From the IMG/VR virus record IMGVR_UViG_3300043395_002192, positions 1 to 26,526 of that record: a stretch of 26,526 nucleotides of DNA. One strand, given 5' to 3'. Below the pieces are notes generated by a model. That model had not been told where the DNA came from, ran no database searches, and saw only the letters and a list, made by a program, of their open reading frames with translations. Numbering within the stretch: the stretch's first letter is position 1; every line of letters starts with the position of its first letter. The translations under genes and the position numbers were made by a program. The DNA comes from a virus. Below are positions 2 to 19,672 of this stretch, piece by piece.

Positions 2-457
2 AATTTAAGAGATGTCAATGCAAACATATCAGGGTATCAAGTTGCATTAGGTAATGAAGAAAAAATGGTGACTATGTATCTTAGTGATAATGATCAGATG
101 AGTAGTTCAATTCTTAAACCAAAAAAGCATCTTGAAAATCACCCAACAGTTCATTTTGAGGGAACTGAAGAAGTTGAAATGAAACGTCTTGATAGCTATT
201 TTGATGAGACTCAAACTTTTAATTTTATTAATATGGATGTTCAGGGATATGAACTTGAAGTTTTGAAAGGTGGTGGAAAAACACTACAACATGTTGACTA
301 TGTGTATTGTGAGGTCAATAGAGACGAAGTTTATGAAAATAATGCTTATGTCGAAGAGTTAGACGAATTTTTGAGTGATTACAATATGAAAAGAGTTGAA
401 ACAGAATGGTCTGGTGGAATTTGGGGCGATGCACTTTACATTAGGGGAGTAGAATGA
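2..457 (+). CDS. FkbM-family methyltransferase, C-terminal part (5' truncated by window edge)
   Basis: The reading frame is open from base 2, so the gene starts outside the window and about 151 residues are visible. The segment MDVQGYELEVLKGG followed by a V-x-C-E-V-N stretch is the hallmark of FkbM-type SAM-dependent methyltransferases, where the Asp/Gly/Glu region closes the active site. The family usually O-methylates sugars or polyketides. The stop overlaps the start of the next glycosyltransferase gene in an ATGA junction, so it is the first visible member of a five-gene glycan operon. The acceptor is unknown; a sugar on the virion or on host surface glycan is an inference from the neighbours. 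Confidence 0.85.
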   Translation, partial: NLRDVNANISGYQVALGNEEKMVTMYLSDNDQMSSSILKPKKHLENHPTVHFEGTEEVEMKRLDSYFDETQTFNFINMDVQGYELEVLKGGGKTLQHVDYVYCEVNRDEVYENNAYVEELDEFLSDYNMKRVETEWSGGIWGDALYIRGVE

Positions 458-1305
458 CTATTAGTTATAATAGACTAGGATCTAATGGACGCTTGGGAAA
501 CCAAATGTTTCAATATGCTTCTTTGAGAGGTATTGCAGAACATAGGGGGTTTGAATGGATGATTCCAAGACCAGAAAGTTATGGAGATTCTAATTATGGA
601 CTTTTTGATTGCTTTAAGATGTCAACAGTCCAGGAAAAAAATTTTGGAATTTTAGAAGCAGATAGCTATGCTACAGGACAATTCCATTTCTCTAAGGAAT
701 TTTATGATAATTGTCCAGACAATATAAATCTTCATGATCATTTTACGACGGAAAAATATTTCTTAAATGTAGAAGATGTGATCCGACGAGATTATACTTT
801 TAAAGATGAGATTTTAAATCCTTGCAAGGAAATGATCGATAGTTTTGAAAATCCTATATTTCTACATGTTAGAAGAGGAGATTATCTCGCACACCTAGAT
901 GCTCATCCTGTTTGTGCGATTTCATATTATCGAAAAGCTCTAGAGTTTTTCGATAATGATTGTCCTGTTTTTATTTTTTCCGATGATATTGGATGGTGCA
1001 AAGAACAAGAGTTATTTGCTGATGACAGATTTATGGTATCGGAATATAAACAACGTTATCCTCAACTTTCTGATACTTTGTATGGAAAGCAAAAATCATT
1101 GATTCCATATTTTGATTTATGCATGATGTCTCTTTGTGATGGTGGAATTATTGCTAATAGTACATTGAGTTGGTGGGGTGCTTGGCTAATAGAAAACCCA
1201 ACACAACCAATTGTTGCTCCTAATCCTTGGTTTGGGAAATTTTATGACCATTATAATATGAGTGATCTCATTCCCGATGAGTGGATAGAGGTATCTTATG
1301 AATGA
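454..1305 (+). CDS. GT11 alpha-1,2-fucosyltransferase-like glycosyltransferase (copy 1)
   Basis: The 283-residue protein has the GT11 landmarks in order: GRLGNQMFQYASLRGIA near residue 12, the GDP-binding HVRRGDYL near residue 138, and NSTLSWWGAWL near residue 235. Family length is about 270-300, so it looks complete. GT11 enzymes transfer fucose (or a related sugar) from GDP-sugar in the cytoplasm. A GGGGAG ribosome site precedes the ATG, which overlaps the upstream stop as ATGA. A paralogue lies at 2112-2918, with one other glycosyltransferase between them. GT11 membership is firm; donor and acceptor are not known. Confidence 0.9.
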   Translation: MTISYNRLGSNGRLGNQMFQYASLRGIAEHRGFEWMIPRPESYGDSNYGLFDCFKMSTVQEKNFGILEADSYATGQFHFSKEFYDNCPDNINLHDHFTTEKYFLNVEDVIRRDYTFKDEILNPCKEMIDSFENPIFLHVRRGDYLAHLDAHPVCAISYYRKALEFFDNDCPVFIFSDDIGWCKEQELFADDRFMVSEYKQRYPQLSDTLYGKQKSLIPYFDLCMMSLCDGGIIANSTLSWWGAWLIENPTQPIVAPNPWFGKFYDHYNMSDLIPDEWIEVSYE

Positions 1306-2125
1306 TCTTACTTTTTTGATGCCATGTAGAATAGAAAGTAATGATAGACTTAAAAATATTATTACCACAATTGGCTATTTGCATTATAATTTTCCAGAAT
1401 GTTCTATTATTGTAAAAGAACTTGATAAAGAATCTGTATTTACGCAGCAAGTAATTCCAGTCATAAGAAATATTTTTGGATATATCCCAGAAAATTTAAA
1501 TCACATTTATGAAAGGTCTGATGATCCATTTTTTCATAAAACTAGAATTTTAAATGATTTAGTTTTGGCATCTGAAACTGATATAGTTTACAATTACGAT
1601 ATTGACCATTTATTACCAATTGATAGCTATAGAAAAGCACATGAAATGATTAGCAGTGGAAATTACGATGCTGTTTATTGTTATGGAGTAGGAGTATATC
1701 AATATCTTGTAGATTATTCAGTTGAAATGTTCAATGAATTCATTGAATCTAAGTTTGATTTAAATGTTTTGTCTCCTGGTTGTAATATATCTCCTTCCGT
1801 AATGGGGTTAGGGCAAATGATTCGAAGGAGATCGGAAATAGATTCTTATATGTGGAATGAAAATTTTATGGCTTGGGGACCAGAAGATTGTGAATTTTTA
1901 TATAGAATACAGGTTCTAGGATATAAAGTAGGTAGAATAAATGATATATGCTACCATTTAAATCACGAAAGAACATTTAATTCTCACTACCATAATCCAA
2001 AGTGGAAGGAGAATATGGATATTTGGCAAAATATTAGAACGTGGGACAAAAATAAAATAATTGAATATTATGAAAATCAAAATTATGTCAGTGAACGAAG
2101 GAGTTATTTGAATGTTAGCGTTTAA
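1298..2125 (+). CDS. glycosyltransferase, GT2/GT7 galactosyltransferase-like fold
   Basis: This 275-residue protein starts with a strand typical of a GT-A fold (FLMPCRIES). It has an acidic YNYDIDHL motif near residue 103 that fits a metal-binding DxD element. Its C-terminal half carries MAWGPEDCEFLYRIQ and YHLNHERTFNS, resembling the C-terminal galactosyltransferase/GT7 signature (W-G-x-E-D and H-x-x-H). It overlaps the previous gene by 8 nt and is itself overlapped by the next gene by 14 nt, as in a translationally coupled operon. The GT-A assignment is good; the exact family and sugar are inferred only. Confidence 0.78.
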   Translation: MNDLTFLMPCRIESNDRLKNIITTIGYLHYNFPECSIIVKELDKESVFTQQVIPVIRNIFGYIPENLNHIYERSDDPFFHKTRILNDLVLASETDIVYNYDIDHLLPIDSYRKAHEMISSGNYDAVYCYGVGVYQYLVDYSVEMFNEFIESKFDLNVLSPGCNISPSVMGLGQMIRRRSEIDSYMWNENFMAWGPEDCEFLYRIQVLGYKVGRINDICYHLNHERTFNSHYHNPKWKENMDIWQNIRTWDKNKIIEYYENQNYVSERRSYLNVSV

Positions 2126-2918
2126 TCATCTTGGAAAACTGGGCAGACTTGGAAATCAGATGTTTCAATATGCCTCTTTACGAGGTATTGCTAGAAATCG
2201 TGGATATGATTTTTGCATTCCAAGCCACAATCAAGTGGTTAAGGATCCATATGGATTTGACTTGAAGATAGAATTATTTTATCCTTTTGAAATGTCTCAT
2301 GTAAGTTCACGTAATATTAAACTTCTTGATAGGGGATATGCTCCAGTAGCAGAAGAAAAACATTTTCATTTTGATGAACTTCTTTTCCATATGTGTCCAG
2401 ATGAGATTTCTCTTGCTGGATTTTTTCAGTCTGAAAAATATTTCAAACATATTGAAAATGAAATACGCGAAGACTTCACATTCAAGGACAATATTTTTAG
2501 TCCGTGTAAAGAAATGATTGATTCAATCGATGAAGCAATTAGTTTACATGTAAGACGAACTGATTATCTCCAAAATCCAAATCATACTACTTTAGATATG
2601 GATTATTATGAAAAGTCTTTATCTAAAATGGATGATAATCTTCCGATAATAGTTTTTTCTGATGACCCTACATGGTGCAAAGAACAAAAACTTTTTGAAA
2701 GTGATAGATTTATGATATCTGAGTCTAATGATCATTATGTCGATTTGTGTCTTATGACTTTGTGTAAATATCATATTATTGCTAATAGCTCATTTAGTTG
2801 GTGGGGTGCTTGGTTATCAAAATCAAATAAGGTAATTGCACCTTCAAAGTGGTTCGGTGAAGGTAATATAGATAAAAATACTAAAGACTTAATTCCAGAT
2901 AGTTGGACAGTAATATGA
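2112..2918 (+). CDS. GT11 alpha-1,2-fucosyltransferase-like glycosyltransferase (copy 2)
   Basis: Second GT11 gene, 268 residues, with GRLGNQMFQYASLRGIA near residue 10, LHVRRTDYL near 147 and NSSFSWWGAWL near 222. The first motif is identical to copy 1, and KEMIDS and WCKEQ stretches are also shared, so the two are recent paralogues with divergent middle regions. An AAGGAG site lies 8 nt before the ATG. HVRRTDYL replaces HVRRGDYL of copy 1 in the donor site, which may mean a different specificity. The order GT11-GT2-GT11 suggests sequential action on one glycan; this is inference. Confidence 0.9.
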   Translation: MLAFNHLGKLGRLGNQMFQYASLRGIARNRGYDFCIPSHNQVVKDPYGFDLKIELFYPFEMSHVSSRNIKLLDRGYAPVAEEKHFHFDELLFHMCPDEISLAGFFQSEKYFKHIENEIREDFTFKDNIFSPCKEMIDSIDEAISLHVRRTDYLQNPNHTTLDMDYYEKSLSKMDDNLPIIVFSDDPTWCKEQKLFESDRFMISESNDHYVDLCLMTLCKYHIIANSSFSWWGAWLSKSNKVIAPSKWFGEGNIDKNTKDLIPDSWTVI

Positions 2919-3709
2919 TGGATAAAAATAAATCTACTTATAAACTTAAAAATTTTGGGCCAGTATATTATTTGAATCTTGATGATCAACCAGAGAGAAA
3001 AGAGTATATGGAAGATCAATTTAAATATTGGGAAATAGAAAACTATACTCGAATTTCTGCATACGATGGTAGAAACGATGATCTAAGTGATATTATTTCT
3101 GGTAGGTATCCTGAAATGATGACTTCAGGTGAAATTGGATGTGTTACGTCTCATTTGAAAGCAATTAATCATTGGTATAATACCTCTGATAGTCCTTATG
3201 CGATTATCATGGAAGATGACTGTGATATTAGTCTTGCACATTATTGGAATTTTACTTGGTCTGATTTTATTGCAAAAGTTCCTTATTCTTGGGATGTAAT
3301 TCAGCTTGCAATTATTTGTACTGGGAATATTGTTGTTCCAATTCATACAAGATTTGTAAATGATTTTTCTACCGCATGTTATGTAATCACTAGACATCAT
3401 GCTGAAAAATTAATTAAATTCCATATTAGAGGAGAAAAATATAAATTAGATAATGGCGTAAAACCTCGTCCAGTTGCTGACGATCTCATTTATAATTCTG
3501 GATGTACATATGCGACACCTATTTTCTTGTATAAAATTGAATTGGGATCTTCTATTCATCCTGAGCATATTGATATCTTTCATAAAAATAGTTATAGTGG
3601 AATTCTTAATTTCTGGCAACAAGCTGGAGCACAAATGACATTAAATCAAATTACTGATTATGATCCATATCTTGGTAGGATCACAGAACCAACTGGCGAA
3701 GGGTCTTGA
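2915..3709 (+). CDS. GT25-family glycosyltransferase (LPS-biosynthesis type)
   Basis: The protein begins with a VYYLNLDDQPERKEYM strand typical of GT25 enzymes. GEIGCVTSHLKAINHW and the acidic AIIMEDDCDIS motif (metal and nucleotide-sugar binding) follow near residues 70-110. GT25 includes bacterial LPS galactosyltransferases. The ATG at 2915 overlaps the preceding stop, so I prefer it to an upstream in-frame TTG at 2903; an ATG at 2918 is also possible. It is the last gene of the glycan operon. Its 3' end overlaps the -35 box of the porin promoter, so there is no spacer between the two transcription units. Confidence 0.86.
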   Translation: MMDKNKSTYKLKNFGPVYYLNLDDQPERKEYMEDQFKYWEIENYTRISAYDGRNDDLSDIISGRYPEMMTSGEIGCVTSHLKAINHWYNTSDSPYAIIMEDDCDISLAHYWNFTWSDFIAKVPYSWDVIQLAIICTGNIVVPIHTRFVNDFSTACYVITRHHAEKLIKFHIRGEKYKLDNGVKPRPVADDLIYNSGCTYATPIFLYKIELGSSIHPEHIDIFHKNSYSGILNFWQQAGAQMTLNQITDYDPYLGRITEPTGEGS

Positions 3710-3850: not shown

Positions 3851-5335
3851 ATGTTTAAATCCGCTTTCGCAGCAACTCTTGCTGCAACTCCACTTGTCGC
3901 TGGTGCTGCGTTCGCAGAACCTTACGGTCCTTATGTGGATATGCCCCAAGTAACTAGCATCACTCAGTTCTCTGATGTTCGCCCTACTGATTGGGCGTAT
4001 CAGGCACTTAGCAACCTTGTAGAGCGTTATGGTTGCGTTGCTGGTTATCCTAACAGCACCTTTGGTGGTGGATCATCAATGACCCGCTATGAGGCAGCAG
4101 CACTTCTGAATGCTTGCCTCGATCGTGTGACTGAAGTTACCGATGAACTCAAGCGTCTGCAAGCTGAATTTGCTTCCGAACTTGCTGTTCTTCGTGGTCG
4201 TGTTGATAAACTGGAAACTCAGGTTGGTCAACTTGAGGCAACTCAGTTCTCTACTACTACCAAACTGCGTGGTGAAGCTTCTTTCGTTCTGGGTGGTGTT
4301 AGCAACGCTTGGACTCCTGGCGCAACTGCTAGCACGAATGTTGGTGAAACCGCATTCAACTATGACCTTCGCCTGAACTTTGATACTTCGTTTACTGGCA
4401 AAGATCTGCTTCGCACTCGTCTGCGTTCTGGTAACTTCTCAAGCCAACCTTTTGGTTCTTCTGCTTCGCTCTTCAAACTTGATAAAGCAGAATCCACTTC
4501 TGATGCCGTAAAGATTGACCGTCTGTACTATCAGTTCCCTGTTTTTACCAAGGGTCTGACTGCTACTGCTGGTCCTCTGGTTCGTAATACTGAGATTGCT
4601 TGGATTCCTTCCGCATATAAGTCGGAAATCCTTGACTTCTTCCAACTTGCTGGTGCTCCTGGTGTCTATAACAAGGCAACTGGTTCTGGTTTTGGACTCC
4701 AGTATGTTCAACCTGGTAAGAAGGGTGGATTCGTTGCTGGTGTCAACTATGTTGCTCAAAGTGGCGCTGATTCCACTAAAGGTGAGTTCAATGAAACTGG
4801 TGCTCTGAATACGATGGCACAAATCGGTTATCGTGCTCCTCAGTACGGTATTGCCTTTGGTTATCGTTATGGTACTGAAGGAACTCGTGTTCGTACTTAT
4901 AATGGCGTTCTGGGTTCTTCTGGTGTTCTTGCTCCTGGCCAAACCTCTAACGGTTATGCTCTGAGTGCTTATTGGCAACCCAAGACTTCAGGAATTATTC
5001 CTTCGGTCTCTGCTGGTTATGGTTGGAACACCGTAAGTCGCAATGCTCTGAATCAGACTACTCCTAATGGTGCTACCGATTCTCAGACTTGGTATGCTGG
5101 TCTGCAGTGGTCTGATGTGTTTGCTAAGGGTAATGGTGCCGGTTTCGCTATCGGTCAACCTGGCAACGCTGAAGGTCTGTCTAAAGATGCCCTCATGTGG
5201 GAAGCATTCTACAAGTATCGTGTAAGTGATCATATCACGATTACTCCTGCTGTATTTTATGTTTCTAACAATCAGGCATTTGCAGGTGCATCTTCTAATT
5301 ACGGAGCAGTGGTTCAAACAAAATTTACTTTTTGA
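3851..5335 (+). CDS. cyanobacterial-type outer-membrane porin (SLH domain + OprB-like beta-barrel)
   Basis: The 494-residue protein has a signal peptide of about 22 residues ending A-F-A. An SLH domain (about residues 36-95, FSDVRPTDWAYQALSNL ... RYEAAALLNACLDR) follows, then a heptad-rich coiled coil (about 93-131) and a long Gly/aromatic-rich barrel ending in terminal phenylalanine (QTKFTF), the outer-membrane insertion signal. This matches host Som-type porins that anchor to peptidoglycan-linked polymer through SLH and form pores for small solutes or iron. Codon use and G+C are visibly higher than in the neighbouring glycosyltransferases, suggesting acquisition from a host. Strong promoter, own leader and terminator make it a single-gene unit. 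It is intact in length and frame. Its role in infection (nutrient influx, receptor masking or replacement of host porin) is inference. Confidence 0.92.
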   Translation: MFKSAFAATLAATPLVAGAAFAEPYGPYVDMPQVTSITQFSDVRPTDWAYQALSNLVERYGCVAGYPNSTFGGGSSMTRYEAAALLNACLDRVTEVTDELKRLQAEFASELAVLRGRVDKLETQVGQLEATQFSTTTKLRGEASFVLGGVSNAWTPGATASTNVGETAFNYDLRLNFDTSFTGKDLLRTRLRSGNFSSQPFGSSASLFKLDKAESTSDAVKIDRLYYQFPVFTKGLTATAGPLVRNTEIAWIPSAYKSEILDFFQLAGAPGVYNKATGSGFGLQYVQPGKKGGFVAGVNYVAQSGADSTKGEFNETGALNTMAQIGYRAPQYGIAFGYRYGTEGTRVRTYNGVLGSSGVLAPGQTSNGYALSAYWQPKTSGIIPSVSAGYGWNTVSRNALNQTTPNGATDSQTWYAGLQWSDVFAKGNGAGFAIGQPGNAEGLSKDALMWEAFYKYRVSDHITITPAVFYVSNNQAFAGASSNYGAVVQTKFTF

Positions 5336-7964: not shown

Positions 7965-8297
7965 ATGAAAACATACAAACAATTTATTTCTGAAAATGTA
8001 AATATTTCTGGTAATGCTTCTGTAGGAACTTTAATTATTAATGGTTCTGAAGAACAAGCGTCTCAGCCAGTTGGAGAGCAATTTTATGCTGATTTTATGT
8101 GGGAAGGAAACATCTATAGGATTGAACTGATTTCTGATTCTAATAATCTTCCATCTAGAGAAAAACTTGCAGAGCAAATTCAAAATGAATATCCTGGAGC
8201 AATTGTGCATAACATATATCCAGCATTAGGAACAAATAATCCTTATAAAGTTTCAGACATAAAGAGATATCACCCAGCAAAATTAGATTGGATTTGA
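7965..8297 (+). CDS. candidate phage internal protein with T4-type capsid-targeting sequence
   Basis: This 110-residue protein starts MKTYKQFISE, nearly the same as the capsid-targeting sequence MKTYQEFIAE of T4 internal proteins I, II and III. In T4 that peptide directs proteins into the prohead and is cut after its Glu by the gp21 protease, whose sites end in (I/L)-x-E. Here I-S-E precedes Asn11, leaving a mature protein of about 100 residues. ATG 7965 is chosen because of this match; a longer in-frame start lies at 7878 and would overlap the divergent gene. The rest (beta-rich, then an NEYPGAIVHNIYP segment) is not recognised. The next gene is a probable virion protein. Delivery into the host with the DNA is inference. 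Confidence 0.72.
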   Translation: MKTYKQFISENVNISGNASVGTLIINGSEEQASQPVGEQFYADFMWEGNIYRIELISDSNNLPSREKLAEQIQNEYPGAIVHNIYPALGTNNPYKVSDIKRYHPAKLDWI

Positions 8298-8305
8298 GGT
8301 AAATA

Positions 8306-9628
8306 ATGGCTCAGTGGAATAAGCATAAACAAGATTATTTGAATCAAGAAAGATCTCTTTTTGAAGTTAATAATATAGCTACAAAAGATGGTAGAATAGT
8401 AGATGATTATAATAGATTTCCTGTTACTATAAATTCAGATGCATTTGGAAGAACAAGAGTATCAAGTCCATTAACACTCTTTGATTCTTCTCATAGATAT
8501 AGAGATAATAATCTTTGGGACAGTCTGGTTATAGGAACTGGTTCTACTGTTGGTTTTGTAACTACTCAAGGGCTAGTTGATATTGGCATTGGAACTACTG
8601 CTGGTTGTTCTGTGATTAGAGAAACAACAAAAACATTTTCTTATCAGCCAGGAAAATCTTTATTAATTATGAATACATTTGTGATGAATGAACCAAAGCA
8701 AAATTTGAGACAAAGAGTTGGATATTTTGGTTCAGATAATGGAATGTATTTTGAGGTAGATGGAACTATAGCATATTTCGTAGAAAGAAGTTTATCAACT
8801 GGAACAGAAACTAAAGTACCACAGACAGATTGGAATATTGACAAATTAGATGGAACTGGAGTTTCTGAAATTACGTTAGATCCATCTAAAGCCCAAATTC
8901 TTTGGATGGATATTGAATGGTTGGGCCTCGGGACGGTTAGACTTGGCTTTGTAATTGATGGTCAGTTTATACACGCACATTCATTTCACCATGCAAATAT
9001 AATTCAATCAACATACATTACAACTGCATGTCTTCCAATGAGGTACGAGTTGAGTAATACTGGAGTGACTACCAGCCCTAGTAACATGAAGCAGGTTTGT
9101 TCTTCTGTGATTTCTGAGGGGGGTTACGAACTTCGTGGATTGCAACAAGCAGTTTCGACACCAATTCAATCCCCAATAGATTTGCCAAGTGCAGGAACAT
9201 ATTATCCAATAATTTCAATTCGTTTGAAATCGCCAGTTAATGGACAGCCAGATAGATTGGATGCTATTGTCATTTTAACAGCATTATCTTTGATGGGAAC
9301 TGGGAATGGTCCAAAATATAATTGGCAAATAAGAGCTAGTGGAATTACGTCTGGTGGAATATGGAATAGTGCTGGGTCGGATAGTGCGGTAGAATATAAA
9401 ATTGATGGAGGAACTATAAGTGGAGGAAGAATCTTAGCATCAGGATTTCTTACTTCTGCCAACCAATCAACTCCAACAATTGATATTCTTAAAGAAGCAC
9501 TTTTTAAATTCCAGCTTGAAAGAAATGGTTTAACTCAAGTTCCTTATGAATTGACTTTAGTTGCTTCTTCAGATACTGCTGGAGCAGATATTTTTGCTTC
9601 TATGGATTGGGAAGAATTTAGTAGATAG
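8306..9628 (+). CDS. probable virion structural protein (440 residues)
   Basis: Long beta-rich protein with many Gly, Ser and Thr residues and no signal peptide or membrane segment. It begins MAQWNKHKQDYLNQ and has a mid-region rich in aromatic beta-strands. GAGG precedes the ATG by 8 nt. It follows the internal-protein candidate by 8 nt, so both probably share the late-like promoter. Long proteins of this composition in cyanomyoviruses are often virion-associated, possibly tail or fibre-related; I cannot name a T4 counterpart. Assignment rests on composition and context. Confidence 0.6.
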   Translation: MAQWNKHKQDYLNQERSLFEVNNIATKDGRIVDDYNRFPVTINSDAFGRTRVSSPLTLFDSSHRYRDNNLWDSLVIGTGSTVGFVTTQGLVDIGIGTTAGCSVIRETTKTFSYQPGKSLLIMNTFVMNEPKQNLRQRVGYFGSDNGMYFEVDGTIAYFVERSLSTGTETKVPQTDWNIDKLDGTGVSEITLDPSKAQILWMDIEWLGLGTVRLGFVIDGQFIHAHSFHHANIIQSTYITTACLPMRYELSNTGVTTSPSNMKQVCSSVISEGGYELRGLQQAVSTPIQSPIDLPSAGTYYPIISIRLKSPVNGQPDRLDAIVILTALSLMGTGNGPKYNWQIRASGITSGGIWNSAGSDSAVEYKIDGGTISGGRILASGFLTSANQSTPTIDILKEALFKFQLERNGLTQVPYELTLVASSDTAGADIFASMDWEEFSR

Positions 9629-19045: not shown

Positions 19046-19672
19046 ATGGAAAATTATAAAAAGTATTCTCTTGAAAACCTTGAAAATTGGTTGCACGATG
19101 CTATGTCTGCTGACGGAGCAACACCGCAAGAAATCTATGGTACTATTCGTAAAGTAGTAGAGGAAAACTACTACTTTTATAAACATCAAACATCTAAAGC
19201 ATATGAACTTCTTGCACTGTTGAATGGTAATGGTAAGGGGCACATTAAAGAATATGATGATTGTGTGGATAGAATCTTCAGTTGTGATAAAGATGATCAA
19301 TCACCTGAACGTAAAGGTGCTTGGGATAGTTTTTGGACGCATGATGATGTATTAATACAAAGAGAATACTATCAAAAGAAAGATAAAGTTTTTAAGTGGC
19401 GACTTCCTGTAGAACTAGATGGTCCAAGTGGAGAGTACTATATTATTCTTCCTGATGATTTGCTTGAGGCAGCAAATCTTAAAGAAGGTGATCAAATAGA
19501 ATGGATAGATAATAGTAATGGTTCATTTATACTTAAAAAGTGCGAATCAGATACACATAAAGAACTTCCAAACCACAGTCAATCAATCAATAATGACTAC
19601 AAAACTTACGAAGAAGCAGTGAAGAATGGATGGACAATGACTGCTGATGGATTTTGGATTAAAAATTCATGA
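19046..19672 (+). CDS. protein with AbrB/MazE-type swapped-hairpin DNA-binding segment, 208 residues
   Basis: The middle part (about residues 118-166) reads WRLPVELDGPSGEYYIILPD, then DLLEAANLKEGDQIEWID, then SFILKK. That is the AbrB/SpoVT pattern: beta strand, I-(L/I)-P, L-G-(L)-K-x-G-D, beta strand. The N-terminal 80 residues are helical (DAMSADGATPQEIYGTI) and the C-terminal part has EEAVKNGWTMTADGFWI. AbrB-like proteins are transition regulators in cyanobacteria; a phage version could act on host or phage promoters. No Shine-Dalgarno site is visible. Confidence 0.72.
   Translation: MENYKKYSLENLENWLHDAMSADGATPQEIYGTIRKVVEENYYFYKHQTSKAYELLALLNGNGKGHIKEYDDCVDRIFSCDKDDQSPERKGAWDSFWTHDDVLIQREYYQKKDKVFKWRLPVELDGPSGEYYIILPDDLLEAANLKEGDQIEWIDNSNGSFILKKCESDTHKELPNHSQSINNDYKTYEEAVKNGWTMTADGFWIKNS

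Follow-up and report, generated by a model that had tools for sequence, protein, structure and literature searches.

The open reading frame at positions 7965 to 8297 of a virus fragment encodes a small protein with an N-terminal decapeptide that matches the capsid-targeting sequence (CTS) of T4 internal proteins. This leader is conserved at the positions important for function, and other cyanophage proteins that were detected in virions have it as well. The leader is very probably a working CTS, because the corresponding pattern greatly exceeds its control in phage genomes and because it heads unrelated proteins, virion-detected enzymes among them. The explanation we consider probable is a late protein with a T4-type CTS, processed by the prohead protease gp21, that serves as a prohead-core or internal protein. 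Residues 1-10 would dock the protein to the prohead core during head building, gp21 would cut behind Glu10, and the mature 100-residue protein, consisting of a disordered linker and a small beta-beta-alpha-beta domain, would stay inside the head.

These parts deserve different degrees of trust. A location of the mature protein in the head is again probable, while its injection has somewhat less than an even chance: it may exit with the DNA at infection, which is speculative, as is any action in the host. A role as anti-defence effector is quite improbable. The explanation gains support from the mature domain, which recurs in proteins labelled as or detected among virion proteins (S-SCSM1 ORF29, S-CREM2 gp137), and from a late-promoter-like element upstream. 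It is weakened by the fact that two virion proteomes do not report the family, by the acidic mature part, and by the pairing with a virion-protein gene.

The gene, its family and the leader

The window, i.e., the whole analyzed stretch of 26.5 kb, is an IMG/VR virus record and was judged by gene content to derive from a T4-like cyanophage. It contains psbA-, transaldolase-, zwf-, and gnd-like ORFs (the names are our reading of the sequence) and shows PHROG matches to a high-light-inducible protein and to cyanophage head proteins. The ORF is intact, with an ATG at 7965, 110 codons and a stop at 8295-8297 on the plus strand.

The protein is a member of PHROG 1742 (profile match E 2.1e-27, 96 bits, residues 1-88), which corresponds to T4-GC 1019 in Syn33; no difference of the window protein from this family, to which no function is assigned, was noted. 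The family is widespread in T4-like cyanophages (Kyanoviridae). A tblastn search with the window protein gave 143 phage records at E<=1, many of them near-identical isolates, with a query coverage of at least 80% in 26; all 143 are named after Synechococcus, Prochlorococcus or cyanophage. Thus, the protein is not undescribed, as the first-pass annotation had suggested it might be. Pfam (E<=10, which includes DUF6321, PF19846), PADLOC, and NCBIfam revealed no match.

In total, 54 IMG/VR loci were retrieved for the family. Family statistics are based on 61 sequences, 48 of which are distinct once identical ones are merged; L045, L056, L057, and L059 (cut or broken frames) and L058 (match to residues 62-110 only) were left out. 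In L059, the leader is retained and the frame ends after 41 residues, and L058 has a leader-bearing 60-residue frame directly before the conserved end. Both broken frames may reflect assembly error or decay.

The T4 sequence confirms the likeness claimed at first reading, as the leaders of ipII and ipIII both read MKTYQEFIAE. M1, F7, and E10 are invariant in all 48 distinct members, position 4 holds either F or Y, and position 8 one of I, L, and M, such that each of the 48 shows the N-terminal CTS with its aromatic residue 4, F7, hydrophobic residue 8 and E10. In T4, targeting is described as acting mainly via residues 4 and 7 and processing via residues 8 and 10 (PMC9026906). Conservation at these functionally mapped positions, together with the same leader on cyanophage virion proteins, supports the assignment as capsid-targeting. 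Purifying selection acts on the leader. Its pN/pS is 0.20, compared to 0.49 in the linker, 0.40 in the domain and 0.72 in the tail (39 sequences, with synonymous sites near saturation), and codons vary freely across members while the key leader residues stay.

Cleavage by gp21 is predicted behind Glu10. The aligned gp23 region reads FLTE/A in T4, the site at which T4 gp23 is cut, and FLAE/A in S-SCSM1; the other two cyanophage gp23 sequences in that alignment lack the motif at the aligned place. A gp21 gene is annotated in S-SCSM1, S-CREM2, and S-SM1, the last of which is without the family, and none was identified in the window. Table 1 lists the features of the locus.

Table 1. Features of the locus (window coordinates).
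Feature	Position	Strand	Basis
ATAAATA, late-promoter-like, 22 nt before the start codon	7936..7942	+	same place in relatives
CTS-like leader, residues 1-10, MKTYKQFISE	7965..7994	+	identity with T4 IPII/IPIII 7/10
Predicted gp21 cleavage site Glu10/Asn11	7992..7997	+	I-x-E motif; Glu invariant at position 10 (48 members)
Linker, residues 11-37, predicted disordered	7995..8075	+	pLDDT <50 over residues 1-35
'YPGA' domain, residues 38-86, beta-beta-alpha-beta	8076..8222	+	model pLDDT about 70-83
C-terminal tail, residues 87-110, conserved RY-x-P-x-x-L-x-W end	8223..8294	+	alignment
Partner gene, PHROG 1645 'virion structural protein'	8306..9628	+	E 2.1e-162

The leader pattern in phage genomes and virion proteomes

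A search for other leader-bearing proteins had been suggested at first reading. The pattern M-K-x-[FY]-x-x-F-hydrophobic-x-E, applied as DNA, has 52 matches in 25 phage records (4.25 Mb; 25 in 11 records, 24 in 12, and three new ones in two more), whereas the same pattern reversed, used as control, has a single match (S-CAM9). Two whole cyanophage genomes yielded 7325 start-anchored 12-mers, which fulfil the rule five times in the CTS register and never in three shifted registers. The window holds one leader-pattern ORF only, that at 7965-8297, and the cyanophage S-PM2 none. T4 itself has three matches, ipII, ipIII, and gp61.1. T4 IPI, for which a longer propeptide is described (PMC9026906), is not caught, and the rule therefore misses real cases. 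The matching gp61.1 (gene 61.1, T4 19101-19130) starts with MKTFKEFIKE, and the adjoining gene 61.2 is adfA, an anti-DarT gene (PMC9391042).

Sorted by the sequence behind the leader, the leader-bearing proteins fall into 15 unrelated groups, the biggest being the 7965-8297 family and an NMNAT/cytidylyltransferase family, whose S-SCSM1 member belongs to phrog_395. A further family of 240 residues (L076, L077, and L078; phrog_36119 for L077) has a nucleotidyltransferase-like GG...YSDLDLH motif. The S-CREM2 virion list includes gp156, which does not have the strict leader and by eye looks akin to this family. NMNAT-family proteins of eight records have in common a module of about 45 residues (LGL-x-x-DGHG-x-W-like) after the leader, also found in a short S-SKS1 ORF, the S-CREM2 kinase gp14, and the Cas9-like gp12 (loci L064, L065, L066, L079, L081, L109, L114, L115, and L121, with S-CREM2 gp12/gp14 in L153). 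As the module is common to unrelated virion enzymes, these proteins seem to have a two-part N-terminal leader. Two more leader-bearing proteins are an 82-residue basic paralogue of the YPGA domain in Sf-FS3 (L063, 111880 in the record), distant from the main gene, and a stand-alone DUF6321 protein in S-CREM1.

Table 3 of PMC10665884 lists 52 virion proteins of S-CREM2 identified by MS; such lists may include contaminants, according to the same source. We scored 217 of the 219 S-CREM2 CDS, leaving out gp21 and gp105 (across piece ends), neither of which is in Table 3. The strict leader occurs in three of the 217, and all three are among the virion proteins (Fisher p 0.013): SAM hydrolase gp6, kinase gp14, and cytidylyltransferase gp154. 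Five of the seven CDS with a relaxed leader are in the virion list (p 0.0095), and expressed otherwise, the relaxed leader is found in 5 of 26 listed non-structural-set proteins vs 2 of 165 unlisted ones (p 0.0006); since this leader was set after some N-termini were known, the p-values should be read as a guide and not as clean tests. The Cas9-like gp12, in which a leader-like stretch begins at residue 17 of the annotated protein, at a CTG codon, was counted as neither strict nor relaxed.

Further proteomes are in line with this association. The NMNAT of S-SCSM1 has the leader and was detected in virions (48 virion labels were counted in the record annotation vs 45 per paper). The S-SZBM1 cytidylyltransferase, whose leader is one residue shorter, was detected in the virion proteome (Table 1 of that study), and the single pattern match of S-SM1 belongs to the T4-GC190 family, whose detection in S-SM1 virions is reported in PMC3037559. 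Strict-leader proteins outside the 7965-8297 family were thus reported in five of five cases in these proteomes. The 7965-8297 family itself was reported in neither of the two published virion protein lists able to show it (S-SCSM1 ORF30, S-SZBM1_191). Proteins of 61-93 residues were reported in those proteomes; a low copy number in virions may account for the absence from both lists. S-CREM1 also has the family, and only 14 proteins were detected in its virions.

The mature part and the neighboring genes

The AlphaFold2 model, built on 31 sequences, has a mean pLDDT of 61. A PDB search gave nothing at E<=0.001. The top match to a solved structure is T7 Gp2, and it is weak (E 0.19; Z 5.5 over 50 residues, rmsd 2.0), as a structural Z below 8 proves nothing and beta-beta-alpha-beta is a common arrangement; ribosomal and phycobilisome-linker chains score nearly as well. 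In the model, the strand-helix arrangement is similar to that of Gp2, and no sequence likeness to Gp2 was found. Two other leads were dropped. A likeness to CpcD/phycobilisome linkers (several chains with Z 3-4) was without sequence support: CpcD is absent from the 14 Pfam families listed for 38 members, and PF01383 matches none of four phage records. Profile hits to RPA and R.MvaI in the PDB (E 0.03-0.12) were too weak.

Matches to the YPGA domain in a viral library comprised an S-SCSM1 virion protein as well as DUF6321 proteins from P-HM1 and S-CAM9. A profile search of 21 records revealed the family in 17, eight of which hold extra domain copies; seven of these copies lie inside large ORFs, including S-SCSM1 ORF29, labelled as virion protein, and one is the small Sf-FS3 paralogue. 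S-CREM2 gp137, which is on the MS virion list, holds the domain as well. The DUF6321 virion proteins share the domain with the window protein and differ from it in being large, modular and leaderless.

Compared to T4 IPII and IPIII, the protein agrees in leader spacing, cleavage motif and small size, but its mature part is unrelated, acidic and conserved across many phages. The mature pI is 4.5-5.2 in five members, with values up to 6.2 also obtained, vs 9.6-9.7 for IPII/IPIII. The family therefore lacks the basic mature part of T4-type internal proteins; acidity is also seen in T4 gp61.1 and in some of the cyanophage proteins with the leader, and a basic pI is not strictly defining.

The gene sits in the gp16-gp17 structural region among fiber-like genes. 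The late-promoter-like element ATAAATA has a nearly constant position in the window and in L006-L010, the five relatives closest to it (6/6), and is absent there in L015, L019, L029, L056, and L059. As it occurs 12 times across the window vs 13.7 expected, its number is not above chance and was dropped as evidence; what counts is its conserved place alone. The ORF directly upstream ends, in many phages, in a DUF6321-type stretch (Pfam match in both tested), which neither the window nor L006-L008, its near relatives, have. Upstream DUF6321 proteins of other phages also contain the YPGA domain. The model of the partner at 8306-9628 is of low confidence (mean pLDDT 52.9). A laminin-G/galectin-like fold was rejected for this protein, as Foldseek TM-scores to the query do not exceed 0.21, and only the description 'beta-rich' was kept.

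Competing readings and wider meaning

A possible, though rather less probable, reading is that the small protein assists assembly of the adjacent PHROG 1645 protein: the leader would hold it in the prohead core, and it would be lost from the finished particle or remain in few copies. T4 gp68, with 240 copies in proheads and none in mature heads (Table 1 of PMC9026906), provides a precedent for such a loss. In most records the family gene is followed by full-length PHROG 1645, and the distance to the start of the downstream gene does not exceed about 15 bases in most loci. Full-length PHROG 1645 was found only in family-holding records and in none of the five family-lacking ones, with no match in P-SSM2, Syn9, and S-SM1 and partial matches in S-PM2 and S-CREM2. 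In S-SM1, which is without both genes, T4-GC119 is directly followed by T4-GC392, while Syn33 has the pair. Thus, gene and partner appear to be gained and lost together, which favors a particle-connected role. Along this line, the partner's homologue S-SZBM1_190 is in the S-SZBM1 virion proteome and the small protein is not. However, S-SCSM1 and S-SKS1 keep the small protein with a different gene in the partner's place, and a cleavable leader has no obvious use in a protein that acts in assembly only. In S-B43, the PHROG 1645 match is split in two pieces.

An injected effector, acting for example on RNA polymerase or a defense system, would be a further step of the best explanation rather than exclusive of it, and we regard it as unlikely. 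Injected T4 proteins have this leader, and among them Ip1, Ip2, and Ip3 are described as blocking GmrSD enzymes (PMC12373910), and the best structure match, T7 Gp2, is an RNA polymerase inhibitor. Yet this fold match is weak and nearly equaled by other chains, the strong conservation is unlike T4 internal proteins, and the searches of Pfam, PADLOC, and NCBIfam gave no match. The first-pass annotation had read the signal correctly but overreached in function: the proposed effector against a cyanobacterial defense is supported by no test, and the family is conserved rather than diversifying, acidic, and tied to a virion-protein gene. More doubtful still is a leader that docks to another virion part (fiber or neck) and resembles T4 by convergence. 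The location among fiber-like genes would suit it, but the leader also heads virion enzymes without an obvious structural role (NMNAT, SAM hydrolase, kinase), and the gp21-type I/L-x-E end is kept. Ten residues are short enough for a chance likeness to come to mind; the excess of 52 matches over one control in 25 records and the invariant positions in 48 members make it negligible.

The prohead-core or internal protein that we favor shares its leader type with the cyanophage NMNAT/cytidylyltransferase (T4-GC190) and the S-CREM2 SAM hydrolase and kinase. These differ in being larger, virion-detected enzymes, several of which have a GDGHG-type module that the window protein lacks behind its leader. 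Whether such enzymes (NMNAT, SAM hydrolase, kinases) are cargo or contaminant in cyanophage virions was left undecided by the authors in PMC10665884 and PMC9602691; the T4-type tag makes cargo likelier and provides a rule by which more can be found from sequence. Should this rule work, genomes could be used to list the proteins that first reach the inside of a cyanobacterium together with the phage DNA. Our literature search, with subscription papers outside its scope, found no paper on CTS-bearing cyanophage cargo, and a search on NAD+ reconstitution no title on cyanophage capsid cargo. We tentatively suggest, as an idea with the odds against it, that the capsid address of T4 serves T4-like cyanophages as a general loading tag for a set of proteins delivered ready-made at infection, commonly the NAD-making enzyme NMNAT and in some phages SAM hydrolase, kinase, or a Cas9-like nuclease. 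The 7965-8297 protein would then be a highly conserved small member whose domain acts in the host in the first minutes.

Two features elsewhere in the window were observed in passing. A cyanobacterial-type porin gene with SLH and OprB domains lies at 3851-5335 within the phage fragment. By eye only, positions 454-3709 hold a series of sugar-transferase-like ORFs, two of which, 454-1305 and 2112-2918, resemble each other.
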